A DNA stretch of 32,918 nucleotides, from IMG/VR virus record IMGVR_UViG_3300012920_000010, positions 1 through 32,918 of that record. One strand, 5' to 3'. Under the pieces are notes generated by a model that was not told where the DNA came from, made no database searches, and worked only from the letters and a program-made list of their open reading frames with translations. Below are positions 1 to 32,918 of the stretch, piece by piece. Positions within the stretch are counted from its first letter, which is position 1; each line of letters begins with the position of its first letter. Made by a program: the position numbers and the translations under genes. This DNA comes from a virus.

Positions 1-123
1 CCAACTAATGTCATGCCAACATGGAAGATTTTTTGACCTTCGCCATCTTCAAGTTTTAATAAAGAACCAAATGTTCCTCTATTCATTACGAATCTTGAGT
101 TAGATAAATAATCTGACTTAATA
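1..123. repeat. Terminal direct repeat, left copy (assembly overlap of a circular genome)
   Basis: Bases 1-123 are identical to 32796-32918. The capsid gene reads in frame through the join (956 nt here plus 256 nt from 32795 to 32540 gives 404 codons including the stop). This fits a circular or circularly permuted phage genome whose contig ends overlap. A true 123-bp physical terminal repeat is less likely because it would cut the capsid gene. Confidence 0.93.
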
Positions 124-956
124 GCATAGACTAAATCTAATAATCCATTCGCAGTTAGAGCCGATCCACTTCCAGAGTTAGTTGAACCAACACCAGCAGT
201 TGAATCAGTAAAACCTTGAGGTCTACCTACTGAACTTCCAGAAACAAATGCTGTGCCTTCTGCTTTAGCAAACTGCTCTGCAAACTCAGTTGACATTTCT
301 GTCTCCAAGTTAAAAGCTGAATCTTCAAGCATAGCTTGTGAAATATCGACTAACGCATACATTTCATGAGCATCGATTTGCATCATTCCAGTGGTGTACC
401 CAGTGGTTTCAGTTCGACTAGCTGTTTCTGAAACAAAGGAAGCAGAGAATTGACCAGTTCTTTTTGGTACTTCAATGCCTCTTCTATCTGTAGATCTTAC
501 TCTAGCAATAGAACGAATAGGTGAGATTTCTGTTACACCTTTAATAAGGTCAGCAACATACTCGGCTGGGGCATAAAAACCACCAAGAGTATCGTCTGAC
601 TCATAAAGTGCTTTCCTTTCCTCAGGATCAACTTCACCTTTTCTTAACCAAGTGCTAAATGCTTTCATTTGCATATCAACTTCAGCATCTTTGCTTTGGT
701 TAGGTCTTGCAAGAGCAGTCTCTAATTTTTCAAGTTTAGCTGTTGCCTCTTCTAGATTTTTTGCTTGGATTTCGATATTTTGTTTGACTTCTGCCATTTT
801 AGAAATGTCATCAGCCATTTTATCTACTTTCTCCTCTAGAATTGGATCAGCATGTCCTTTCTTTTCAATTTCATCTAAGCGAGATTTGTTCTCTTTTTTA
901 AAATCCTCAAAAGTAGAACCTAACTCGTCAATGACTTGTTTTATATCATCCGACAT
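1..956 (-). CDS. HK97-fold major capsid protein, N-terminal part (continues at the window end)
   Basis: This is the main shell protein of the head. The start ATG is at 956-954, preceded by an AGGAG site in the gap after the protease gene. The first ~75 residues are charged and helical and should be the scaffolding delta domain that the neighbouring protease removes. The HK97 fold then begins near the GGFYAP segment and includes IEVPKRTGQ, typical of the family. The frame is open to base 1. Closing the circle at the 123-bp repeat joins it to the C-terminal part at 32540-32795, giving one intact 403-residue protein, a normal length for the family. The gene sits directly downstream of the protease, the usual head order. 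It is split only because of where the contig was opened. The call is firm. Confidence 0.93.
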   Translation of the reverse strand, partial: MSDDIKQVIDELGSTFEDFKKENKSRLDEIEKKGHADPILEEKVDKMADDISKMAEVKQNIEIQAKNLEEATAKLEKLETALARPNQSKDAEVDMQMKAFSTWLRKGEVDPEERKALYESDDTLGGFYAPAEYVADLIKGVTEISPIRSIARVRSTDRRGIEVPKRTGQFSASFVSETASRTETTGYTTGMMQIDAHEMYALVDISQAMLEDSAFNLETEMSTEFAEQFAKAEGTAFVSGSSVGRPQGFTDSTAGVGSTNSGSGSALTANGLLDLVYAIKSDYLSNSRFVMNRGTFGSLLKLEDGEGQKIFHVGMTLV

Positions 957-13611: not shown

Positions 13612-13684
13612 GCTCACCCAGAAGTGGGCAATTTCATCCCCCCACATCTCCTGTATGTCTATGTCAAAGGGGGGGTGCTTTTTT
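13612..13684 (+). promoter_or_regulatory. Structured leader / attenuator before the 2OG oxygenase gene
   Basis: GCTCAC (13612-13617) can pair with GTGGGC (13624-13629). CCCCCC (13638-13643) plus ACAT pair with ATGT (13661-13664) plus GGGGGG (13669-13674), followed at 13679 by six T residues, like a terminator. GTGGG can instead pair with CCCAC at 13641-13645, so the two hairpins are mutually exclusive. The G run is also the only possible ribosome site for the next gene. It may be a terminator after the SSB-like gene or a switchable attenuator. Confidence 0.6.
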
Positions 13685-13687
13685 AAA

Positions 13688-14287
13688 ATGTCAGTTGAAT
13701 ATCTACCATCAAAGTTTTTCAAAGAAAATTGCAGACATAATCCAGCAAATGAGCCTTTCTATGGTGTTATAGAAGTTACCACAGGAAATGGAAATGCAGA
13801 GGCTTGTATGAGAGAAGCTATTGAGAATGGTAAGAAAGTAGATGTTGGAGTTCAGGGTAAGCAAACTAATATCAGAAGATTATCTAGCTGTTCAATTATA
13901 GATACAGAAGTATCTTATACTTCAAAAGTTATTATGGAGGCTGTTTCAGAATTAAATCTTATGTTCAATTATGAACTGGCATCTATACAGGAGATTTTAT
14001 ATTGTGAATATACAGTCGGTGACCATTACAAAATGCATGTTGATGTAGGAGAGGGTTACCATGCCAATAGAAAATTATCTTTAACTTGGAACTTAAATCC
14101 TGATGAATACGAGGGTGGAGAGTTATGCTTTTACCAGCCACATCTAGAGGGTGGAGTTGCAAAATACAAATCACCTAACAATAATATTATAGGATTTACT
14201 TCTTGGCTTAATCATGAAGTTAAACCAGTTACATTTGGAACGAGAAAATCAATAGTCGCATTTATAGGAGGCAAGGCATGGAAGTAA
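13688..14287 (+). CDS. 2-oxoglutarate/Fe(II)-dependent oxygenase (early gene)
   Basis: The 199-residue protein has the PKHD/prolyl-hydroxylase-like double-stranded beta-helix: the HxD iron motif in YKMHVDVGEG (H117, D119), then LSLTWNLNPDEYEGGELCFY (131-150), the second iron histidine in WLNHEVKPV (H176), and the 2-oxoglutarate arginine in GTRKSIVAF (R186). All catalytic residues are present. It should hydroxylate an unknown substrate, possibly a protein residue or a modified base. ATG 13688 follows the structured leader; there is no ordinary AGGAG site, only the G run. It is expressed with the early recombination genes, unlike the second oxygenase (24051-24722), which lies in the tail operon. 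Confidence 0.87.
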   Translation: MSVEYLPSKFFKENCRHNPANEPFYGVIEVTTGNGNAEACMREAIENGKKVDVGVQGKQTNIRRLSSCSIIDTEVSYTSKVIMEAVSELNLMFNYELASIQEILYCEYTVGDHYKMHVDVGEGYHANRKLSLTWNLNPDEYEGGELCFYQPHLEGGVAKYKSPNNNIIGFTSWLNHEVKPVTFGTRKSIVAFIGGKAWK

Positions 14288-20982: not shown

Positions 20983-21542
20983 CTAAAAATCTGGATACCT
21001 CTCTTTTAACTTTTCAACATCACTTGCAGTCATAGGTTTCGACTCTTTTTTACCAGAATGAAACTCTTTAAAACCTTTAATTGATAATGTTATCTCATTA
21101 ATCGACATTTGCCAAAAGGTATTTGAGTCAATACCCATCATGCCTTGACAAACTTCAATCCATCTTTCGACAGGGAGTGGTTCTAAATCTTCTAAGTCTC
21201 CGACTTTTTTTCAGAGTCTACCTCTTCGTCAGTATCTATATTTAATGCTAATGTAACCAATTCACCAGCAGTTTTGATTGCTTCAATTAATCCTATTTCA
21301 CTAACGATAGCTTTGACATCTGTTTCTTTAATATCATTGCCACCACCTCGTAGTCCATAATATATAACTTGAATTACTTGAGATAAAGTCATGTCGGCAC
21401 TAGCTAACTTGTTTCCAACTTTTAAGATGGAACAATCAAGAGCCGATTCTACTTTCATGATGGTGTCTAATGACATCCTCGCCTTATACTCCTTTCCATT
21501 AAGAAGAAGTATTTTTTCGGCTCTTAACTTGTTTATGCTCAT
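20983..21542 (-). CDS. Tail assembly chaperone, short form plus -1 frameshift extension
   Basis: The zero-frame product is 116 residues (21542 to 21192), resembling GTA-type tail assembly chaperones (MSINKLRAEKILLLNGKEYK; QVIYYGLRGGGN). At A-AAA-AAG (21210-21204) a -1 shift would add 73 residues: VGDLEDLEPLPVERWIEVCQ and then GMMGIDSNTFWQMSINEITL, ending ERYPDF with a stop at 20983, directly before the tape measure. The extension matches the small chaperone-type proteins seen before tape measures (FW-x-MS-x-E motif). This gives a short 116-residue and a long 186-residue form, like lambda gpG and gpGT. These proteins hold the tape measure while tube subunits assemble. Confidence 0.85.
21204..21210 (-). 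other. -1 programmed ribosomal frameshift site
   Basis: On the coding strand the heptamer is A-AAA-AAG, the strongest known bacterial slippery sequence (also used in dnaX). Frame 0 reads GAA AAA AAG TCG; after slipping the next codon is GTC. An internal AGAGG lies about 9-10 nt upstream, a known type of stimulator, and AAGTC-GGA-GACTT can form a small hairpin at the site. The -1 frame stays open for 73 codons to the tape measure start. Confidence 0.82.
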
Positions 21543-21756
21543 TGTTATCTCCTTTTGGTCTGTCTACTTGCATTCTAATAACTTCTGATCTTCCTCCAAC
21601 ATCAGTAGCCCAGAGCATAGTACACTTTTCACCATTTACAGTTACTGTAGAAACTTCATCCCATTTTTCAAAGAATGGAACTTCTACCTCATAGCCAAAA
21701 GGAACATCATTAACATGTGCCTCCAGCTTATTTTTGCCAATTATAACTTCACTCAT
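21499..21756 (-). CDS. Small protein between tail tube and tail chaperone genes
   Basis: The 85-residue protein is beta-rich (MSEVIIGKNKLEAHVNDVPF at the start, VSTVTVNGEKCTMLWATD in the middle) with a basic C-terminal tail KQVKSRKNTSS. AAGGAGT lies upstream. It overlaps the tail chaperone start by 44 bp, so the two are coupled. Its position suggests a tail tube or assembly accessory; no family assigned. Confidence 0.72.
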   Translation of the reverse strand: MSEVIIGKNKLEAHVNDVPFGYEVEVPFFEKWDEVSTVTVNGEKCTMLWATDVGGRSEVIRMQVDRPKGDNNEHKQVKSRKNTSS

Positions 21757-21769
21757 TATTTACTCCTTG

Positions 21770-22183
21770 CTATACACTAGCAATAGTTATTGTCCCAGCA
21801 CTTTCAAAAGTCATTGAATACATAACTGCATCAGTATATGAACCACTATACTCTGCTGTCACTAGCATAAACGCTCCAGTAAAGGTTTTGAAATCAGGGA
21901 CAAGAAATTGCAAGTTAGTAAATGAACTCGCATCTAATAAGCCGATTGCTGTTCCCTCACTTGCTGAATCTGTAAATACTCCTGATCCTGTAATACTAAA
22001 TGACTTCACACCACCATGCGCTAAAAGTGTTCTCACCCTTGCACTATCTTTATTGGTGATGTCAATTTGCTCTTGGTTGATTGAGATAGATGTATCTCTC
22101 ATCCCAGCTAATGTTGTAAAAGTTTCTGGCGATCCTCCATTTCCAATTTTAACAAGGATGTCTGTTCCTTTTTGACTAGCCAC
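21770..22183 (-). CDS. Major tail tube protein
   Basis: The 137-residue protein begins MASQKGTDILVKIGNGGSPE and has MRDTSISINQEQIDITNKDS and GVKSFSITGSGVFTDS, close to the tail tube proteins of GTA and TP901-1-like phages. It should polymerise as hexamer rings around the tape measure. Start is GTG, supported by GGAGG 6 nt upstream. It lies between the connector genes and the tail chaperone, the standard order. Confidence 0.88.
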   Translation of the reverse strand: MASQKGTDILVKIGNGGSPETFTTLAGMRDTSISINQEQIDITNKDSARVRTLLAHGGVKSFSITGSGVFTDSASEGTAIGLLDASSFTNLQFLVPDFKTFTGAFMLVTAEYSGSYTDAVMYSMTFESAGTITIASV

Positions 22184-22198
22184 TATAAGCCTCCATAA

Positions 22199-22606
22199 TT
22201 AATTATCAAATACAAGTATATCTAAACTTATAACCCCATGTCTAGTGATACCATCTGCTTCCACTAAAGTTATCACATTTCTTACTTGAGAACGACAGAA
22301 ATCTGCTCCTGATACACTCAAGCTAGAATTATGCAATAAATTATAAACTCTTTCCATTATATTTTTTATTTCTTTTTTACCTCGATATTGACTCCATACC
22401 TCTATGTCTATACTGTAATCGTTGCCATCAACTGATTTTGTGCCAACATTGACAGCATTCTCATTACTAATGACCACATAAGGATATGCAGAGTCTTGAG
22501 GAACATTATCGTAAATTCTATTATTACCAACTAAGCCATCAAGTGTGCTGTCACCTGAAAGAGTATTATATATGGTCGTTTGTAAATCAAAACTATGATA
22601 TCCCAT
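22199..22606 (-). CDS. Tail terminator/completion protein (DUF3168 type)
   Basis: The 135-residue protein has the family layout: an N-terminal helix (FDLQTTIYNTLSGDSTLDGL), then GNNRIYDNVPQDSAYPYVVI (about 28-47), SIDIEVWSQYRGKKEIKNIM and a final beta part GVISLDILVF. These proteins cap the tail tube and join it to the head. It overlaps the next upstream gene by one base and is followed by the tube gene. Confidence 0.85.
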   Translation of the reverse strand: MGYHSFDLQTTIYNTLSGDSTLDGLVGNNRIYDNVPQDSAYPYVVISNENAVNVGTKSVDGNDYSIDIEVWSQYRGKKEIKNIMERVYNLLHNSSLSVSGADFCRSQVRNVITLVEADGITRHGVISLDILVFDN

Positions 22607-23049
22607 TATATTTTACTCCTGATAGATATATCCTTTGCAATTTTATTAGCATATTGTCTTGTGTTTTGAAATGCTTGTGAGTTCTCACTCATAAAAGGTC
22701 TATTCTTTGATCCTTCTAAAAACTTCGCATATTCAACTCTGGTCATAACTGCAGAGGATATTTTTGTCTTTCCACCCATAACTGTAGCTGGTCTGATCAT
22801 TATACTATTGACTAATCTACTTGAATCAATTGCTGGAGGAAAGCCCTCTTTAGATGGATAATGTTTTTTATTACTTACACTACTCTTAACTGCCTTTGAT
22901 TGTTTAGGAGTTGATCTCATTGATTTAGCTATTTGATTTCTGAAGTGATTTGCTACACGATTAAGATGCCTAATTGTGTGTGCATCGTAAAGCCTAACTG
23001 CCTCTGATATTTTTGTTTCAATATTAGACTCTATCTTTACCTTTATCAT
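22606..23049 (-). CDS. HK97 gp10-like head-tail/tail component
   Basis: The 147-residue basic protein has a long N-terminal helix (about 12-45, AHTIRHLNRVANHFRNQIAK) and the family-type segment SSRLVNSIMIR, then RVEYAKFLEGSKNRPFMSE, matching the gp10-like family, where a Y-A-x-x-x-E-x-G element precedes RPFM. It acts in the neck or tail completion. Overlaps the head-tail adaptor gene by 4 bp. Confidence 0.83.
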   Translation of the reverse strand: MIKVKIESNIETKISEAVRLYDAHTIRHLNRVANHFRNQIAKSMRSTPKQSKAVKSSVSNKKHYPSKEGFPPAIDSSRLVNSIMIRPATVMGGKTKISSAVMTRVEYAKFLEGSKNRPFMSENSQAFQNTRQYANKIAKDISIRSKI

Positions 23050-23378
23050 GTAGCCACACCCTCTTTTGCATCGATAACTTGATATCTAGCACCACTCTCT
23101 TTATCTACTCGTATATGTTCTATATTAAAAAATTTAGAATTAAAACTTAGACGATGCTTTGGTGTTAGTGCTGAATAATATCTTATTGTAAATCTATAAT
23201 TACTCCTATCTTCAATCTGATCACCAAAGATAGCTTCCTCTCCTGATAAGTTTTCTACCTTTGCCCAGACAGTTGCAACAGTGCTAAAACTAACTGATTG
23301 CCCACCACCCTCGTCTGTTGACTCTGACATGGATTGTAAAGCAACTCTGTTTCTCATAGAGCCAATCAAACTAGACAC
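23046..23378 (-). CDS. Head-tail adaptor (SPP1 gp16-like head closure protein)
   Basis: About 110 residues, reading LIGSMRNRVALQ near the start, then GGGQSVSFSTVATVWAKVEN, LSGEEAIFGDQIEDRSNYRF and FNIEHIRVDKESGARYQVID, the pattern of head closure/adaptor proteins. It should seal the portal-connector exit. GTG 23378 is chosen because GGAGG lies 8 nt upstream; a TTG at 23393 would overlap this site. It overlaps the connector gene by 8 bp. Confidence 0.83.
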   Translation of the reverse strand: MSSLIGSMRNRVALQSMSESTDEGGGQSVSFSTVATVWAKVENLSGEEAIFGDQIEDRSNYRFTIRYYSALTPKHRLSFNSKFFNIEHIRVDKESGARYQVIDAKEGVAT

Positions 23379-24051
23379 TATATAAACCTCCAAAAGATGC
23401 AGTTCCCCTGAATGGGTTAGTTGAGAATTGAATAATTTTATATGGTCTCAATAATTGTATTGCTGATGGAGGAGGTAATATCGCTTTACCATCTAAACCA
23501 TCACCTCTATTTTCAAACAAATGCGAGGCATATAACAAACAAGCATTTCTTATATCTGCTGGAACATCAGTCCTTCCACCATATCCAGCAACATATTGTA
23601 TCTCAAATGCATCAGCTACTCGTAAACCTGTCGGATAACTTTCACCCTGTCTAAGAGTTAATTTAGCTGGTGAGGATGCTGTACTAACATAATATTTGCT
23701 AGATGCAAAAGTAGTGGCTGAATCACTATCATCGTAACTTTTAAAATGAGTAACACTTGCAACAGGCGAGAAAGGTAATAGTATTGATCGTCTATTAATA
23801 TCTTGATCTATGCCGACATACTTTCCCTCTTCTATCACTCTGTCTGCTTGATATATACTATCAATAAATAACTGTATTGTTTGAGTTGTTAAACTTCTTT
23901 GTGTGTAGTTTTTAGCCCAGTTATGTACAGTAACTCTAATGATATCCAATGTATCATTATCATCTGTGCCTGTGATTTTTAAGTGATTTTTTAAATCATC
24001 AGTATTTACTACATGCTCTGTTTCAGCTGTATGTATTTTTATACCAGCCAT
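23371..24051 (-). CDS. Head-tail connector protein (phiE125 gp8 / HK97 gp6-like)
   Basis: The 226-residue protein starts MAGIKIHTAETEHVVNTDDL; the block NHLKITGTDDNDTLDIIRV (about 22-40) is typical of connectors that form a ring under the portal. Later elements include SKYYVSTASSPAKLTLRQGE and VQYVAGYGG-type text (QYVAGYGGRTDVPADIRNAC). ATG 24051 overlaps the previous stop as TAATG. It begins the connector-tail tube block. Confidence 0.85.
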   Translation of the reverse strand: MAGIKIHTAETEHVVNTDDLKNHLKITGTDDNDTLDIIRVTVHNWAKNYTQRSLTTQTIQLFIDSIYQADRVIEEGKYVGIDQDINRRSILLPFSPVASVTHFKSYDDSDSATTFASSKYYVSTASSPAKLTLRQGESYPTGLRVADAFEIQYVAGYGGRTDVPADIRNACLLYASHLFENRGDGLDGKAILPPPSAIQLLRPYKIIQFSTNPFRGTASFGGLYSV

Positions 24052-24722
24052 TATCTTCTCTCCCAATTATAAAAATGTGTAATTCCATATCTGCCATATC
24101 CAAATGGAATATCATCTTTAGATGATACCTTTGTTACTTCATGCTGTAAATAACTCGGAAACAATAACATACGATTAGATATACATTCAATCGTTGCATC
24201 AATAGGAACGATCCTTGTGTTACCACCAAAGAACCTCTTAGGTTGTTTGTATAACCATATTAAACAAGTAAACTGTGTGCCATCATGATGAGGCTTATAA
24301 TATTTCCCTTTGTCGTAATATCCTATAAATGTAGAGTCAGTATTAGTGCCGATAAAATTATGATGATGTAAGGGCATTGCCTCTTTTACAAAATCATGAA
24401 ATTCTGGACTTCTCTGTTTATACATAGACCTTAATATTGGAGATATCTCACTACCCTTTTCTGTGTAAAAATCCCACATATGGAATCTATAAGCATTTGA
24501 TTTTGCTTTTCCATCTTTATCTCTTGCTACTGCTGAATTATTGCTCTCTGCATTTTCTATATTATCAACAGGCTGTGTTCCATACATTTCTAATTCAAGC
24601 CATACAGCTTCCAGTTCTTTTTCTGTGTACCAATTATCAATGACAAGATAAGGAGCCTCTTTCTTTTGATTACAAATTTTCACATCCCAGTCTTGTTTTA
24701 TTTTTTGAACTACTAAGCTCAT
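24051..24722 (-). CDS. Second 2-oxoglutarate/Fe(II)-dependent oxygenase (structural operon)
   Basis: The 223-residue protein has iron ligands in YKPHHDGTQF (H145 and D147) and LQHEV (H194), and a candidate 2-oxoglutarate arginine R211 in GYGRYGITHFYNW. GGNTRIVP and LLFPSYLQHEV are typical of the phage prolyl-4-hydroxylase-like group. It differs clearly in sequence and layout from the early oxygenase at 13688. It is coupled to the cupin gene upstream (4-bp overlap) and to the connector gene downstream. Possible substrates are tail or receptor-binding proteins, or host proteins late in infection; unknown. Confidence 0.86.
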   Translation of the reverse strand: MSLVVQKIKQDWDVKICNQKKEAPYLVIDNWYTEKELEAVWLELEMYGTQPVDNIENAESNNSAVARDKDGKAKSNAYRFHMWDFYTEKGSEISPILRSMYKQRSPEFHDFVKEAMPLHHHNFIGTNTDSTFIGYYDKGKYYKPHHDGTQFTCLIWLYKQPKRFFGGNTRIVPIDATIECISNRMLLFPSYLQHEVTKVSSKDDIPFGYGRYGITHFYNWERR

Positions 24723-25198
24723 CCTAAAGTACCATCATCTCTGCCACCCATAGTAAATAATCTTTTATGTGGGTATATTCTGTTGTTAATCTTCACCATA
24801 ACTTTATCATCTCTAAAAAATCCAGCTTGTATTGACCACACATAATCATCGCATTTTATTCTATGAAATGTGCTTTTTTTTACATAATTAAACCACTTTC
24901 TTTTCTTAACAATAATATTACCATTGTCATTTATTTCTTCTGTGTAATTACCTTTAAATATAAATGATATAAAATTAGTTTCATGACTGTGATAGATAAC
25001 TCTTGCATCAGATTTAGTGTTTGCAAATTGCTTATCATGATCTATTGGATGTATTCTGGATATTAATACTGTTAATGGTTTAGTCCAGAAACCCCACCTA
25101 GATATTGCTCTGACACCATTGTTTGCAACAACATGACTTGCGCCAAATCCAATATTACAAATCTTTAAGAGGAACTGTATCATAGCCACCTGATCCAT
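24719..25198 (-). CDS. Cupin-fold protein
   Basis: The 159-residue protein has a cupin-type pattern: YHSHETNFISFIFKGNYTEE (69-88; H70, H72) and, after a spacer, STFHRIKCDDYVWSIQAGFF (109-128; H112). Such phage and bacterial proteins bind a metal and may be dioxygenases or isomerases, but the activity is unknown. The start is uncertain: ATG 25198 overlaps the upstream gene by 44 bp; ATG 25183 has AGGTGG very close. It sits directly before the second oxygenase, suggesting they act on the same target. Confidence 0.75.
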   Translation of the reverse strand: MDQVAMIQFLLKICNIGFGASHVVANNGVRAISRWGFWTKPLTVLISRIHPIDHDKQFANTKSDARVIYHSHETNFISFIFKGNYTEEINDNGNIIVKKRKWFNYVKKSTFHRIKCDDYVWSIQAGFFRDDKVMVKINNRIYPHKRLFTMGGRDDGTLG

Positions 25199-25970
25199 CT
25201 GATTTAGGAACTTTTATATACTCTTTAATATCCTCTTTGCTTTGAGACTGAGCTATACGATTTCCATGATTATCATAGTTAGGAACAACAATCTCTGTTG
25301 AGTCAATATTTGTCAATTCATCAGCATAGTCAGATGTGTATTCAGTATAAACTTTATTTCCTTCACCATAAACTGCATATCTTTCTAAATGAGCTACTAA
25401 GGTAATTTCTGTGAGCTTTTTATTTGTATCAAATTGAAATTTAAAACAATCATCATGTTCTAGCTTTTTATAAGCAGATATTGGCTTTGATATATTTGAG
25501 TTAAGTGTGTCTGCCCATGCATAAATATCTCTTACATTTCCAGAAACATAAATGGCTGGAGTATTTAATAAATCAAACTTTGCATCACACATGTCGGTGA
25601 CATAATCAACATTAATATTAGATGGCACAGTAACGACAGGCATAACCTGTCCTTTTTTATATACTATTTCTATTGTTTTTGTTTTTGTGTCTAAGTCATA
25701 AAAATATTTTATAAAGTCTTTATCAATCAGTAATGAGTTTTGCAGTTTGCTACTATCCTTATAATCTGCTGAACAACTGCAATTATGAATAGTATATTTA
25801 TTCCCACCCATTTTTACACCCCAAACATACATAGGAAATGGAAATGTCTCATCAGGAAATACTTTTAATATTTCATCTTTTACTTTTTTTGTTTCGTCAT
25901 CTTCACTTCCAGCCCAGTAAGTTCTGTGTACAACTTTTTTGTTTTGAATCCAAGTTCTATATAAAATCAT
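25155..25970 (-). CDS. Phage protein of unknown function in the receptor-binding block
   Basis: This 271-residue protein is not recognised. It has a Trp/Tyr-rich start (MILYRTWIQNKKVVHRTYWA), a cluster IHNCSCSAD (about 61-69), two beta-rich halves and an acidic C-terminal part ending in GSGGYDTVPLKDL. No signal or membrane segment. It is coupled to the glycine-rich adhesin (4-bp overlap) and the cupin gene, so a tail-tip or adhesin-modifying role is inferred. Confidence 0.72.
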   Translation of the reverse strand: MILYRTWIQNKKVVHRTYWAGSEDDETKKVKDEILKVFPDETFPFPMYVWGVKMGGNKYTIHNCSCSADYKDSSKLQNSLLIDKDFIKYFYDLDTKTKTIEIVYKKGQVMPVVTVPSNINVDYVTDMCDAKFDLLNTPAIYVSGNVRDIYAWADTLNSNISKPISAYKKLEHDDCFKFQFDTNKKLTEITLVAHLERYAVYGEGNKVYTEYTSDYADELTNIDSTEIVVPNYDNHGNRIAQSQSKEDIKEYIKVPKSDGSGGYDTVPLKDL

Positions 25971-26965
25971 GATACTGCTCCTTGAACATTAGTATTTCCA
26001 TCCTCCCATGTTAAAGTATTGCCATTGAGATTTACAGCTTTTCCTGATGCCCCCCCTGTACCTCCAGAGCCTCCTGTAATTATTACACCACTTGAATTTC
26101 TAGATGTACCAGTTTGTCCATTTTGACCAGCTGAACCATAGCCACCTCCATTTCCTCCAGCACCACCTGTGGCAGGATTTGGAGAGCCATGAGATCCACC
26201 AGCACCTCCTAAACCATGTCCACCAATATGACCACCTTGTCCAGCTACTGATCCTCCCTGACCACCACCATTTGATCCACCAGAGCCACCATTTTGACCA
26301 GCGCCTCCACCACCTCCTCCACCAGAAACTCCAGTAAAGTTAGCACCTTTTCCTGTTGATTGGTCTAGTTGGGCGTTTCCACCTCCACCACCACCTCCAC
26401 CAGCACCTCTGATGAAGCCACCATTATTTTGAATGGTTGTGTCAAATCCTAAATTAACAGCAGAACCACCACCCTGACCAGCAGATCCTGAAATTTGTTG
26501 TTGAGTTTGAGCTGTTGAGCCTGTCGCACCAGCGCCTCCTTGACCACCAGATCCAACTATCTGACTATTATTTATAATTTTTACAGTATCGCCAGATGTC
26601 CATTGATTGCCTGTGTCTATTGCATATTGACCAATAGATGCCGAGCCAACTATGGCTTGAACAGTTAGAGTAACATCTGAATTTCCAGCAGAGTATGTGC
26701 CACCTCTGTTTGAGTAAATATTGTAGTTTTGAGTCGTGCTTGAGATTGTAAGCCCAATCGCAACTCTTGTAACTTTTTCAGAAGTATAAAATATATTAAA
26801 ATTTATAGCCCCTGAACTTGGTATATCGCCACCATTCCCACTTGTTCCAGCTGGTACATTAGAGCCACCAGCATAATATTCTGACATTGAGTGAGGGGCA
26901 TCTCCACCAAACTCTGATGCTATTTGTGATAAAGAAAGAGGTGAGCCTGTACCATGTATCGCCAT
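25967..26965 (-). CDS. Glycine-rich tail adhesin (polyglycine-sandwich type)
   Basis: The 332-residue protein begins MAIHGTGSPLSLSQIASEFG, a typical tip-attachment start. After a beta-rich domain (about 50-130) it has glycine-rich runs (GGAGGGGGGGGN, GVSGGGGGGGAGQNGGSGGS) separated by short variable segments, as in gp38-like adhesins of T-even phages, where glycine helices pack into a sandwich and the variable loops bind receptors. It should bind the host surface. Its start has 4 nt between it and the fibre gene stop. Confidence 0.85.
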   Translation of the reverse strand: MAIHGTGSPLSLSQIASEFGGDAPHSMSEYYAGGSNVPAGTSGNGGDIPSSGAINFNIFYTSEKVTRVAIGLTISSTTQNYNIYSNRGGTYSAGNSDVTLTVQAIVGSASIGQYAIDTGNQWTSGDTVKIINNSQIVGSGGQGGAGATGSTAQTQQQISGSAGQGGGSAVNLGFDTTIQNNGGFIRGAGGGGGGGGNAQLDQSTGKGANFTGVSGGGGGGGAGQNGGSGGSNGGGQGGSVAGQGGHIGGHGLGGAGGSHGSPNPATGGAGGNGGGYGSAGQNGQTGTSRNSSGVIITGGSGGTGGASGKAVNLNGNTLTWEDGNTNVQGAVS

Positions 26966-26969
26966 TTAA

Positions 26970-27833
26970 TTACCCCTTTTTAAGTTCGTCAATTTCTTGT
27001 TTTAACTCATGGATCGACTGGATAAGAACACCCACTAAGTTTCCATAAGCCACAGAAAAATACTCCTCATTTGAATGAACTACCTCTGGCATAACATCAG
27101 CAACTTCTTGAGCTATGACTCCAGTTCCTTTTCTACCACCTCTGTTAAAATAAACACCTCTCATTGCTAACACTTTATCTAATGCATTATCAATAGTTTC
27201 TATATCTGTTTTTAATCGTTCATCAGAGAAAGCAGTTACATCATTATTGAAAGTTGTTGCCCCAGCCTCACTCATATCTATGGTCATGGCTGTAATTTCT
27301 GAACTGCCATCAACACCTTTGATAACAAAGTCTTTATCTCCAACTGCTGTTTTGATTACTAAATCTCCTGAATTTTGAGTAGAAATTTGAGCAACATCAA
27401 TATTTGCTATTTTTACATCTATCCTGTCGTCAGTATCAGCAGTTAAAGATGTATCGGCATCAGCATCCAAAATGAATTCTGTACCATTCATGTCAAGAGA
27501 TTGTGAGATAGTAATAGCTCCACCATCGGCAATACTCATCGCATCATCGCCATCGGTAAATTCTATCAATGCTGTCCTTATACTATCTGATAAAAAATAC
27601 TCAACTGTGTCATTAGTTTGATCCAACTCAAAAAGCTGTATGTTTGCATCATTATCTTCGTTTCTAATATAAAACTTATTAGTTGATGTATCATACCAAA
27701 ACTGATTGGCAAATGTTGTGCTTGGAACTGATGTGCCAGAGTTATTGCTTGATATAGCAGATAAAACATTGTTTAAATCTGTTCTAGTGTTTGGAAATGT
27801 GGCATTTGCAATATTGTAATCGTGTTGAGCCAT
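26970..27833 (-). CDS. Tail fibre with C-terminal S74 intramolecular chaperone
   Basis: The 287-residue protein ends in an S74 peptidase/chaperone domain (about 203-287): SDERLKTDIETIDNALDKV, GVIAQEVADVMPEVV, and a coiled-coil end IHELKQEIDELKKG. This domain folds the trimeric fibre and cuts itself off. The front part carries beta-helix-like repeats (SLDMNGTEFILDADADTS). With the adhesin and the large hub protein it forms the receptor-binding apparatus. Confidence 0.9.
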   Translation of the reverse strand: MAQHDYNIANATFPNTRTDLNNVLSAISSNNSGTSVPSTTFANQFWYDTSTNKFYIRNEDNDANIQLFELDQTNDTVEYFLSDSIRTALIEFTDGDDAMSIADGGAITISQSLDMNGTEFILDADADTSLTADTDDRIDVKIANIDVAQISTQNSGDLVIKTAVGDKDFVIKGVDGSSEITAMTIDMSEAGATTFNNDVTAFSDERLKTDIETIDNALDKVLAMRGVYFNRGGRKGTGVIAQEVADVMPEVVHSNEEYFSVAYGNLVGVLIQSIHELKQEIDELKKG

Positions 27834-27875: not shown

Positions 27876-30800
27876 CTAACTGCTTTCAAGGAATCCAAAT
27901 CCTTTTGCTACAAAACCAAAAGTCCTATCAACAACTGAACCACCAGAATCTTTAAACTTAATAGTAAATCCTGTGGCACTCTTGGATGTGATTTCGTAAA
28001 AATCTCCAGAGGCTAAATTGTCAGCACTTATACCCAAGCCTTGCAATTCTTTAAATGCTGGGCTAAAGGTTATCGCCTTACCACCAGATGCTGTTGTACT
28101 TGCAATGTCATCAACAGCCACAGTTCTATCTGGCATATCAATAGTCGCAACAAGTTGTGATATAGATGGAGTCGCTGTGCTAGTTACTGTGGTCATCTTA
28201 ACTCTTAACTTTATATATCTTGCTTTATAATAGCCTAACACATAATCCTGAAAGTCTGTATAAGTAGAATTATCAGTTGATGTAGATATTTGAACAACTG
28301 CTTTAACATCGTCAAACTCATTATATCCTCCATCAAATAATCCCTCTCTATCATCAAATACTCCACCAAAGCTATCAAATAAAGACTCTGAATCATGTCT
28401 GGATGAGTTCATGGTAATAGTAACAAAGCTGTTAAATATACCCCCTAAGTCTATAGGGTTATTTTGAAACTCATAAGTTGCCTCTAAATTGTTAGGAGTT
28501 AGTCCTCCATCATCAAAGTTACCAGTATTGTCATCAAAGTTTCCAATACCATTATCAAACAACTCACCTAGTATGATCTCTAAAAAATTAGTGCTATCTC
28601 TAGTTACAACTTCACAGCCAGACTTTGTACCAGCAAACCCTGTGCTTTCAGTTTGAGTAGATACAACATTAAAATCCTCATTGATTTGATTAAGTATAAC
28701 CACCTTTTTAGCAGATGTTTCAGATGTTAAATTTAAAACATCAACAGCCTTAATCATATATGTTCCTGTTTTTGCTGGAACAGATGCAACATTAGTTGAT
28801 TTAGAAATATTATCTGCAATAATTTCAGCCCCAGAATAAACCTGACCTGTGGTTGCTGGAGTGTGCCTTATTATGTAATGTGATATATCTAAATCATCAA
28901 CTGGAGTCCAAGAGCAAACAGCTTGATTATCAATAATATTTACAGAAAAATTACTTATATCTGATGGAGGAGCTGACTTACCTACTACCTCATGATCTAC
29001 AGTTACAAAGTCAGATGATACTTGAAATGCATTTATACTTTTTGCTCTTATTTCATAAAATGCTCCATCCTCTACATTTTCAATCTCAAAGACATTATTA
29101 GTGGATCTTCCTACAGATTTAAAAGTATCTTCTGTATTGGTGTTTCTATATTGAACTTCAAACTCTGCTGTTGTTCCTTGATTAGATGATACAACTGCCT
29201 GTATGACAGTTATTGGAGTTCCAGAGTACACTCTTAAAATATCGGTTACTGTTAGTGATGGAGTCGATACATCTTGGAATGATGGTAAGGTTGTATTATC
29301 TTGACTAAAGACAGACTCCTCTGCATTCCAATCGTAAACAGTTGAGCTTGTTTCTTTTAAAACTACATCAACTCCTAGATCATTTTCATTTGCTACAAAT
29401 CCCCAGTCTGCAACTTCAAATATCTTACTACTCAAACCAAGCAAAGAATTATTAATTGTTACTGTATCACCAACTTGCAACTTGAATGCTGTAAGTTTTA
29501 ATGGCGCTTTCAATACCAGTTGCTGTCTGTTTTTAAATAATGTTATCTTTGCAATTCTTTGTGCCATAACACTTGATTTAGTAAAAGGCAAATCAACATC
29601 TGCAAATACTACCTCTCCATCCTCATCAGTAAAAGTTGAGCTTGTAACCATAGGGTAATCTGTGGGTTGGAAATCAGCTTCATCTGATGTAAATATTCCC
29701 TTGACAGTATTGAAAGTATCTTTTCTTGATTGCTTAGTTGTTAACTTTATTCCACCTCTAAAGTCATCCTCACTTAGAGTAATAGTTGGAGCAACATACT
29801 TGCCTCCATTCAAATGAAACTTGCCATTAGTGTAACTTAATATTCCAACACAAGAACTTAATAAGTCATCCAATATCTCCATCGGAGCAATGTCATTAAA
29901 TACTACTCCATGACACTCATATCTTTTTTGAGTACCACCAGCAGAAAGACTGACAGTTTCATCACAAGTATTGGCAACAGTTGTGAATGATGTAGTATCT
30001 ATATTTGATGTTGATACTCCTAAACCAAATCTTGTATCTGATAAAAAGTCATAAATAACCAATGCTGGGTTTGAAGAGAAAGCAGTCGAGCTATCTCTTA
30101 TGTCTAATAATTTTTTACCTTTAATAATCGCTGATATATTTGGAATACCATTTGGAAAGACATCCCTGTCGTATTTTAATTTAATATACAAATAAGCTAT
30201 CCCCTGAAGTCTATGATTTTCTGTCCATCCAGCTACTTCACTCACTAAGTCTGCATCTGCTACTTGATCGTCAGATCCTAAGTGTTGTTTTATTCTGACT
30301 GTTAATTCTGATGAGTCTGTAAATCTATGAATGACCTGAACAGCAGATTCTAAGCCAGTTGTTAAGCCACTCTCAAAGGGTAGTACATTTGTCAGTCTAG
30401 TTGGATTATTAGAATAATATGCCATTTGTGAATCACCAGTTGGTGTATGTTGCCTTATTGAATAAGAATTAACCTGTCTTACTAACCCCTCTGATATGGT
30501 TACAGATAACTCATGCCTACTATTTGCAACAGAAGAAGTGCCTCCAGAATTTACTGTGTACTCTCTGCCACCAATACTTAACTTGTCATTAGCATTTATT
30601 GTAAAAGATGCATCATTAATTAACTTAATAGTTGATGTGCCTTGCGCTAATCCTAATCCATCCTTGTTATAGTTAGCACCTAAAAACTGCTGTGCGACTT
30701 GTACTTTGACATAATCACTAGCAATTAGTGTCCTCTCCTTAGTTGTAAATCTTGACTCTTTTGCAAATTTAGTCGGAGCTGTAACTTTCAACCTTGCAAT

Positions 30801-31223
30801 ACCATTAGCATCGTTACCAACACTTGATGTGGTTAATTGTTCATCATTTAAAAATATAGAATCAATACTTTGTATTTCATGCGATGCCAACTGCACTATC
30901 AAGTGTAAATCCTTATCATTGTTAGTTGTATCTACAAATAAGATACCACCAGATTTTTTTGTTTCCCCATATACTACATCTCTTGGGATGATTGGCTGTT
31001 TGAACATAATTGTTCTGTTTTGAGTTTCTTGCTGGAAACTAGCCTGTTGAAGTGAGCTGTTTCTTTGTCTCGGTCTTGGAGCTAAAGCATTTCCAACGAC
31101 TATCGTTGCAACAATTAATATTGCCTGAACATAAGGGTTCATCTTTTGAGCTAAAATGTAGTCAAAAGCCTTACTCTTTAAAAAATCTATTGTCCTAGAA
31201 AAAAATGATTTAAAAAAGCCCAC
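27876..31223 (-). CDS. Large tail tip / central fibre protein (J-like host specificity protein)
   Basis: The 1115-residue protein matches the J-type tail tip family. The N-terminal third holds the hub-type text (KQPIIPRDVVYGETKKSGGI, DLHLIVQLASHEIQSID, QGIAYLYIKLKYDRDVFPNG). Fibronectin type III domains follow (about 640-850, e.g. PPSDISNFSVNI, ISHYIIRHTPATTG). Near residues 890-990 there is a series of short FD repeats (ELFDNGIGNFDDNTGNFDDG; ESLFDSFGGVFDDREGLFDG). It forms the tail tip and probably contacts the receptor. Start is GTG (31223), supported by GGAGAT upstream. Confidence 0.9.
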   Translation of the reverse strand: MGFFKSFFSRTIDFLKSKAFDYILAQKMNPYVQAILIVATIVVGNALAPRPRQRNSSLQQASFQQETQNRTIMFKQPIIPRDVVYGETKKSGGILFVDTTNNDKDLHLIVQLASHEIQSIDSIFLNDEQLTTSSVGNDANGIARLKVTAPTKFAKESRFTTKERTLIASDYVKVQVAQQFLGANYNKDGLGLAQGTSTIKLINDASFTINANDKLSIGGREYTVNSGGTSSVANSRHELSVTISEGLVRQVNSYSIRQHTPTGDSQMAYYSNNPTRLTNVLPFESGLTTGLESAVQVIHRFTDSSELTVRIKQHLGSDDQVADADLVSEVAGWTENHRLQGIAYLYIKLKYDRDVFPNGIPNISAIIKGKKLLDIRDSSTAFSSNPALVIYDFLSDTRFGLGVSTSNIDTTSFTTVANTCDETVSLSAGGTQKRYECHGVVFNDIAPMEILDDLLSSCVGILSYTNGKFHLNGGKYVAPTITLSEDDFRGGIKLTTKQSRKDTFNTVKGIFTSDEADFQPTDYPMVTSSTFTDEDGEVVFADVDLPFTKSSVMAQRIAKITLFKNRQQLVLKAPLKLTAFKLQVGDTVTINNSLLGLSSKIFEVADWGFVANENDLGVDVVLKETSSTVYDWNAEESVFSQDNTTLPSFQDVSTPSLTVTDILRVYSGTPITVIQAVVSSNQGTTAEFEVQYRNTNTEDTFKSVGRSTNNVFEIENVEDGAFYEIRAKSINAFQVSSDFVTVDHEVVGKSAPPSDISNFSVNIIDNQAVCSWTPVDDLDISHYIIRHTPATTGQVYSGAEIIADNISKSTNVASVPAKTGTYMIKAVDVLNLTSETSAKKVVILNQINEDFNVVSTQTESTGFAGTKSGCEVVTRDSTNFLEIILGELFDNGIGNFDDNTGNFDDGGLTPNNLEATYEFQNNPIDLGGIFNSFVTITMNSSRHDSESLFDSFGGVFDDREGLFDGGYNEFDDVKAVVQISTSTDNSTYTDFQDYVLGYYKARYIKLRVKMTTVTSTATPSISQLVATIDMPDRTVAVDDIASTTASGGKAITFSPAFKELQGLGISADNLASGDFYEITSKSATGFTIKFKDSGGSVVDRTFGFVAKGFGFLESS

Positions 31224-31798
31224 TATCTATCTCCTCCACCCCATACAATAGATTTATTTTGTATGGAAGCAACAAACTCCAAACCTTTATCATTTGGAAA
31301 TAAGTTTTTTTGATCTTGATCTGTGTATCTTTTATCTATTGGCTTCTCTAAAGATATCATTTTATTTTCAAATCTAAATTCTACATTAACCTCATCACCA
31401 TTATTATCTATATTGCAGACATCTAAAAATCCCTCAAATAGCTTATAAGGTGTTTCAACAATGGCTGTTGCATTATCTGTTGTTGTAAGAACACCAAAGT
31501 AAAACTCACAAGGAATGTTCTGCTCTGTTTCTGATATTCCAGCACTAAGAATAGAACTATCTAACCCAGTTAATACAACTTGCAAACCTGATGCTTTTAT
31601 ATCAGCAGACTCTGATATTGTAGAGAAACTTAAAAAACTTCCAGAACCTGTATAGGTTTCGGAGCTGATAGTGATGTCATGATATCCTGTCCATAGTCGG
31701 AGAGGATTTGAATCATATCCTATTTTTACTGCAAAGAAAGGTCTGAAACTATTGCTAGTTATCTGGGTGTTAAAATCAGAAGATATCGACCTTGCCAT
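31223..31798 (-). CDS. Tail tip/hub assembly protein
   Basis: The 191-residue protein starts MARSISSDFNTQITSNSFRP and has LRLWTGYHDITISSETYTGS, ISESADIKASGLQVVLTGLD and ending KSIVWGGGDR. Proteins of this kind precede the J-like gene in several siphovirus and GTA-type modules and are thought to be part of the baseplate hub. It overlaps the J-like start by one base (TAGTG). Confidence 0.78.
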   Translation of the reverse strand: MARSISSDFNTQITSNSFRPFFAVKIGYDSNPLRLWTGYHDITISSETYTGSGSFLSFSTISESADIKASGLQVVLTGLDSSILSAGISETEQNIPCEFYFGVLTTTDNATAIVETPYKLFEGFLDVCNIDNNGDEVNVEFRFENKMISLEKPIDKRYTDQDQKNLFPNDKGLEFVASIQNKSIVWGGGDR

Positions 31799-32539: not shown

Positions 32540-32918
32540 TTATGCTGAAATGTTTTGTAGACGAATTGCCTCTGCTAGTACAACAGCTCCACCTACTCTC
32601 TTACGAGCCACATATCTTACATTTCCTGATGTAGCTTGAGAGAATGGATCACGAAGTACAGACATCTGAACCCTGTCCACGATTGTATATGCTCTATTAA
32701 AATCACCAAAAGCGATTGGTTTAGCACTTCCACCAATATCTGGCATATCAGTTGCTAATACATAAGGATATCCAAGAATTGTGTTTGGAGCTCCTCCAAC
32801 TAATGTCATGCCAACATGGAAGATTTTTTGACCTTCGCCATCTTCAAGTTTTAATAAAGAACCAAATGTTCCTCTATTCATTACGAATCTTGAGTTAGAT
32901 AAATAATCTGACTTAATA
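32540..32918 (-). CDS. HK97-fold major capsid protein, C-terminal part (wraps to base 956)
   Basis: The open frame runs from the window end to a stop at 32540. It contains AFGDFNRAYTIVDRVQMSVL, DPFSQATSGNVRYVARKRVG and the end VLAEAIRLQNISA, which are the P-domain/A-domain signatures of HK97 capsids. Positions 32796-32918 duplicate 123-1 of the other part. With the join the gene is 1212 nt. The Met nearest the end (32881) is not the true start. Confidence 0.92.
   Translation of the reverse strand, partial: IKSDYLSNSRFVMNRGTFGSLLKLEDGEGQKIFHVGMTLVGGAPNTILGYPYVLATDMPDIGGSAKPIAFGDFNRAYTIVDRVQMSVLRDPFSQATSGNVRYVARKRVGGAVVLAEAIRLQNISA
32796..32918. repeat. Terminal direct repeat, right copy
   Basis: Identical to bases 1-123. 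The repeat is located inside the capsid gene, not at a packaging or replication site, so it most likely shows overlap of a circular assembly. Confidence 0.93.

Follow-up and report, generated by a model that had tools for sequence, protein, structure and literature searches.

The DNA analysed here, hereafter the window, is a stretch of 32,918 nucleotides, and it represents a complete circularly permuted phage genome of ~32.8 kb, since its ends carry an exact 123-bp direct repeat (positions 1-123 and 32796-32918) and the major capsid gene (3-956, minus strand) is divided between both ends. The closest terminases are ~45% identical or less. Along the minus strand the genes follow the order J-like protein, S74 fibre, glycine-rich adhesin (GLY), a protein of 271 residues (p271), cupin (CUP), 2OG-Fe(II) oxygenase (OX), and gp6-like connector. 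The features referred to below are as follows:

26970 to 27833, minus strand: S74-chaperone tail fibre, the flank upstream of the cassette (PF13884, E 1.4e-15)
25967 to 26965, minus strand: GLY, glycine-rich tail-tip adhesin, gp38-like, 332 aa (phrog_11439 tail fibre, E 4e-8)
25155 to 25970, minus strand: p271, conserved 271-aa protein with a predicted beta-barrel resembling ABBA prenyltransferases
24719 to 25198, minus strand: CUP, mononuclear-metal cupin, 159 aa (phrog_4786, cupin fold in the model, conserved ligands)
24051 to 24722, minus strand: OX, 2OG-Fe(II) oxygenase, 223 aa (PF13640, HxD...H...R complete)
23371 to 24066, minus strand: gp6-like head-tail connector, the downstream flank (PF05135, phrog_442)
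13655 to 14287, plus strand: second 2OG-Fe(II) oxygenase, in the replication module (PF13640, E 3e-13)

The open reading frames of GLY and p271 overlap by 4 nt, those of p271 and CUP by 44 nt, and those of CUP and OX by 4 nt, so the four genes appear to be translationally coupled. A promoter scan returned sites that were rarer than in shuffled sequence. The first-pass annotation had reported that the cupin and oxygenase genes overlap and that they are inserted between the adhesin block and the head-tail connectors. Both statements hold, as the two frames are present with the families or fold and the ligands expected of them, and the J-like protein, the S74 fibre, GLY, and p271 lie on one side with the gp6-like connector on the other. 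The J-like and fibre genes have the capsid genes on one flank and the head-tail connectors on the other, and they do not follow the tape measure (27876-31798 relative to 965-1621 and 21192-24066). The same annotation was also right that the window encodes two unlike oxygenases, the second being essentially unrelated to OX (BLASTP E 0.13). OX is part of the cassette; the copy at 13.7 kb lies in the replication module, need not belong to the same system, and is probably outside the cassette.

OX exceeded the gathering cutoff of PF13640 (E 2e-8; 35.5 bits against 27) and matched the PHROG profiles phrog_61/81. Each residue of the iron triad (H145, D147, and H194) is kept in 41/41 sequences, and the 2OG-binding R211 in 39/41. 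The best solved relatives of the OX profile were prolyl 4-hydroxylase (6iuq, E 1.4e-5) and PKHD hydroxylase (3dkq, E 0.005), and among the profile matches OX stood nearest to peptide hydroxylases. These similarities suggest that OX is a 2OG/O2-dependent hydroxylase with a putative peptide or protein substrate.

CUP had no relevant Pfam family, the Pfam CDO match being absent, and its only PHROG match was phrog_4786 'cysteine dioxygenase' (E 6e-10), spanning 62 residues only. The predicted model (pLDDT 76) was a cupin beta-barrel (Foldseek E ~1e-5) with structural matches reaching Z 10.5 (129 residues, rmsd 3.6). The metal ligands H70, H72, and H112 are kept in 69/69 sequences and E87 in 68/69. 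CUP therefore has the fold and the His/His/His(+Glu) centre in common with cysteine dioxygenase and the HppE/Psf4 cupins, but its identity to them is low, about 10-17%. Cupins of the window type were 93-95% identical between distant cassettes, yet only 48-74% of their fourfold sites were the same; a near-identical protein over diverged fourfold sites indicates strong constraint by purifying selection. Recent transfer as the sole cause of the protein identity is insufficient in view of those fourfold sites.

No relevant family was found for p271 in Pfam, PHROG, or NCBIfam, and none of 20 p271 members matched a prenyltransferase family at E<=1 in Pfam or NCBIfam. Its AlphaFold (AF2) model was confident (pLDDT 90), and all 50 PDB matches listed were aromatic or peptide prenyltransferases of the ABBA type (Z 7.0-9.5), superposing with an rmsd of about 4 over about 180 residues and a low TM-score of about 0.4. 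The barrel architecture of the model is that of PagF, LimF, PatF, KgpF, AmbP3, and NphB; in contrast to these enzymes, p271 has fewer and shorter helices and gives no sequence match to them. The model thus suggests a barrel that resembles ABBA prenyltransferases, and because of the TM-score and the missing sequence match we file p271 as a fold resemblance and not as a member of the family. Residues K98, E101, Y91, Y104, C64, and E210 (protein numbering) are invariant, and the conserved R5, R197, and K98, as well as Y18, Y91, and Y104, which are candidates for the diphosphate-binding Lys/Arg and the Tyr shield of an ABBA barrel, fall on predicted strands or strand ends. Sequence searches of the PDB with p271, CUP, and GLY were empty apart from one chance match, and tblastn found no sequence homologues of p271 or CUP in named phages. 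In cellular genomes, the only p271 was on a GTDB contig of 7.6 kb (L155, 6825-7637) from a Maricaulis MAG, which is perhaps a misbinned phage contig or perhaps a hint of the host.

The fourth protein, GLY, has conserved glycine runs separated by variable segments. Four of 18 members of its family matched PF05268 (GP38) at E<=0.1, with a best E value of 7.8e-8; the window copy was unmatched, and the L127 protein, at 30.4 bits, cleared the gathering score of 25. GLY is therefore likely, as judged by profile similarity, to be a gp38-type adhesin. In gp38, hypervariable receptor loops accompany a beta-helix and a poly-glycine II sandwich (PMC12892980). Like the gp37/gp38 adhesin of T2/S16/PP01-type phages, GLY would be a glycine-rich tip adhesin, and it has an exchanged body on a conserved N-terminal anchor; here, in contrast, GLY and the enzyme genes are swapped jointly. 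gp38 is not known to require oxygenases. The window copy belongs to a glutamine-rich subtype with invariant Q79, Q103, Q135, Q179, Q224, and Q328 and the C-terminus WEDGNTNVQGAVS. A collagen-like GLY as the substrate of a prolyl hydroxylase was considered and rejected, proline making up ~1% of the GLY body with or without OX. More distant relatives of GLY were also found beside enzymes: L196 adjoins a small cupin-like protein and a 2OG oxygenase, L223 a PF13759 oxygenase, and L232 a cupin resembling cysteine dioxygenase, while the distant gp38-like relative in L212 is without such enzymes alongside.

Searches seeded with OX, CUP, and p271 returned 124 non-contained loci, 75 after dereplication, nearly all of them uncultured marine viral contigs. 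The order GLY, p271, CUP is fixed across these marine viral loci, about 75 after dereplication, which represent at least five kinds of gene neighbourhood, a recurrence that makes chance association implausible. The gene upstream of p271 was GLY in 59/62 cases and the gene downstream was CUP in 64/67, which bears out the co-occurrence of cupin and 271-residue gene raised in the first-pass annotation; from these gene orders, the 271-residue gene belongs to the cassette system. Where the order was broken, part of the cassette was duplicated or a gene of an oxygenase family had been inserted. In L124 and L143, the protein placed between p271 and CUP is a 383-aa member of oxygenase family F8. What follows the cassette depends on the locus: siphovirus connectors (as in the window), a phrog_3287 virion protein, endolysin genes, or phrog_7595/phrog_10775 genes, and in some loci T4-type neck genes a few genes further on. 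Changes of neighbouring genes numbered at least 14 on the p271 tree and at least 16 on the CUP tree, indicating that the cassette moves between phage lineages. The literature open without subscription yielded no description of a GLY-p271-CUP cassette.

Between 0 and 6 enzymes follow CUP (OX, other 2OG oxygenases, a fatty-acid desaturase of PF00487, a short-chain dehydrogenase [SDR], and a Cupin_2 protein), and nearly all of them are oxygen-dependent. In about a dozen loci the desaturase (L062, 4406-5176, and relatives; family F27) stands directly behind the cupin and ahead of the oxygenases. Behind its three p271-type genes and two cupins, the greatly expanded cassette in L107 (4554-12391), in which the p271-CUP pair is duplicated, has OX, additional 2OG oxygenases, an SDR gene, and a Cupin_2 gene. 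Separately, proteins assigned to phrog_274 'DNA endonuclease V' (L062, 5154-5663; L039, 7499-8011; L156, 46329-46838) resemble small 2OG-Fe(II) oxygenases. A PF13640 match came from the L062 relative (E 0.0017) and an additional phrog_61 match from the L156 copy, and the label is probably wrong for these phage proteins.

Host-range adhesins are typically exchanged as blocks between conserved flanks. The closely related loci L049 and L134 illustrate how the cassette behaves, as most of their flanking proteins are 86-98% identical, whereas GLY is 57%, p271 62%, and CUP 37% identical, and OX is found in one of the two only. DNA similarity stops ~107 bp into GLY, reappears as a weaker stretch in p271, and returns immediately behind OX in the one locus and in the final bases of CUP in the locus that lacks OX. 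The upstream S74-chaperone fibre remains conserved through such swaps. This comparison indicates that in L049 and L134 the enzymes are included in an adhesin-style exchange.

The presence of OX followed the adhesin subtype without exception. All 32 loci with OX encoded glutamine-rich GLY and all 20 complete loci lacking OX encoded glutamine-poor GLY, and the split also held inside single backbones (11/9 in F6, 5/3 in F22, and 2/2 in F20). Glutamine made up 7.7% of the GLY body with OX compared to 1.4% without it (p = 1.5e-8, kinship ignored). The six glutamine positions and K129 were nearly invariant in GLY of the OX-bearing loci, and the other type has replacements there, chiefly N, S, T, or D. 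Independent changes were concordant in 3/3 cases on the p271 tree and 5/5 on the CUP tree (sign test p = 0.25 and 0.06), tests that rest on few events. Scans seeded with GLY, which are unbiased by p271, revealed that, wherever the DNA downstream reaches far enough, p271, CUP, and OX always follow glutamine-rich GLY of the EDGxxN[VI]QGAVS subfamily. L057, which ends before OX, has a glutamine-rich GLY and lies on one contig with the OX-bearing L007; L198, a variant like L107, also has glutamine-rich GLY on a stretch too short to show the presence or absence of OX. Block exchange by itself could hold GLY and OX together. CUP, which lies between them, is partly exchanged alone, so the unbroken link between GLY and OX is more telling. 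The first-pass annotation had named independent gain and loss of these genes as a sign against a common system. OX changes only with the adhesin subtype (52/52 loci), while the history of CUP is partly independent of its neighbours, as the L084 cupin clusters in the tree with cupins from OX-bearing loci. Because OX is gained and lost with the adhesin subtype and the genes are exchanged as a unit, a modification system linked to the adhesin is indicated. The earlier suggestion of a modified tail or adhesin component is thereby supported in part, as to its direction, and narrowed, the likely partner being specifically the glycine-rich gp38-type adhesin and not a generic tail component.

Marine phages commonly carry genes for 2OG-Fe(II) oxygenases without an explained role, with nine copies in one cyanophage (PMC9146016). 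The pelagimyophages and cyanophages Mosig, S-CAM4, and ACG-2014e have several 2OG oxygenases right behind their tail-fibre genes, as in the cassette, and in two of them, ACG-2014e and S-CAM4, the oxygenases behind the tail fibres are directly followed by a phrog_4851 protein. The p271 model had a BFVD fold match to an ACG-2014e protein of 284 aa (E 0.01). Among the ORFs of ACG-2014e only the phrog_4851 protein has exactly 284 aa, and by its length it would be the BFVD entry resembling p271. No hhalign signal was obtained between the cyanophage 284-aa protein and p271, so this link is by fold only. The cyanophage and pelagimyophage oxygenase clusters differ from the cassette in that profile searches of five isolate records gave no homologue of CUP or p271. 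A further parallel is the chlorovirus PBCV-1, where a viral prolyl 4-hydroxylase is presumed to act on the virus's own repetitive collagen-like proteins (cited in PMC9301287). In contrast to that virus, GLY is without collagen repeats, the candidate targets are glutamine or lysine, and a cupin and p271 are linked to the oxygenase.

Taken as a whole, we consider it slightly better than an even bet that GLY, p271, CUP, and OX form an exchangeable adhesin-maturation cassette, in which the enzymes oxidise, and perhaps prenylate, a candidate substrate, the tip adhesin. GLY would be carried at the fibre tip as a gp38-type glycine-rich adhesin; p271, the prenyltransferase-like barrel, and CUP, the metal cupin, would act on every GLY subtype, whereas OX would act on the glutamine-rich one only, before the tip enters the virion, hydroxylating side chains in or near Q79, Q103, Q135, Q179, Q224, Q328, or K129. 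Related phages extend the enzyme run with more oxygenases, a desaturase, or a short-chain dehydrogenase. The gene identities, the conserved active sites, the gene order, the block exchange, and the tie of OX to the adhesin subtype are observed; we infer the adhesin as substrate, the residues altered, catalysis by p271, and a change in receptor recognition. A more specific version, which we put forward tentatively and hold to be possible rather than probable, is a RiPP-like cassette in which a protein with a prenyltransferase fold, together with a cupin and a 2OG oxygenase matched to the adhesin subtype, chemically remodels a poly-glycine tail-tip adhesin, so that adhesin alleles would bring their own enzymes and side-chain chemistry of a non-genetic kind would set recognition.

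The fatty-acid desaturase found in some runs suits lipid chemistry better than protein chemistry, and together with the SDR in the same runs it somewhat favours a different substrate. Late in infection the enzymes could modify the host receptor or envelope (a lipid, LPS, or outer-membrane protein), which would keep progeny from adsorbing to debris or infected cells, and since the modification must match the specificity of the adhesin, a linkage to adhesin subtype would equally be predicted. The resemblance of p271 to enzymes with isoprenoid substrates fits here too. However, the core enzyme genes overlap the adhesin gene or each other by a few bases in an operon of structural genes, and the solved structures closest to OX belong to enzymes whose substrates are peptides or proteins; we regard modification of the host receptor or envelope, the main rival, as rather unlikely. 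Genes behind fibre genes are often chaperones, annotated assembly chaperones (phrog_4697) occur in the fibre blocks of cyanophages, and p271 matches no enzyme family, which would be in keeping with p271 and CUP as assembly chaperones or structural proteins of the tip and OX alone as a catalyst. The invariant residues of p271 and the near-universal metal ligands of CUP make such a structural role less likely, and we give it a low probability. Phage 2OG oxygenases have been assigned to DNA repair or nitrogen metabolism (PMC9146016; PMC5628999), and the cassette oxygenases could be ordinary auxiliary metabolic or DNA-repair enzymes placed here by chance. That explanation seems very improbable, because it leaves unexplained the fixed linkage to one adhesin family over several neighbourhoods and the perfect subtype association.

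For the adhesin-maturation reading, the perfect link between oxygenase and adhesin subtype supplies a concrete candidate substrate with named residues, and the question of the substrate can therefore be tested by mass spectrometry. If that reading is true, receptor binding by these oceanic phages would depend on an oxygen-dependent protein modification, and the sequence of the adhesin alone would be insufficient to read host range.
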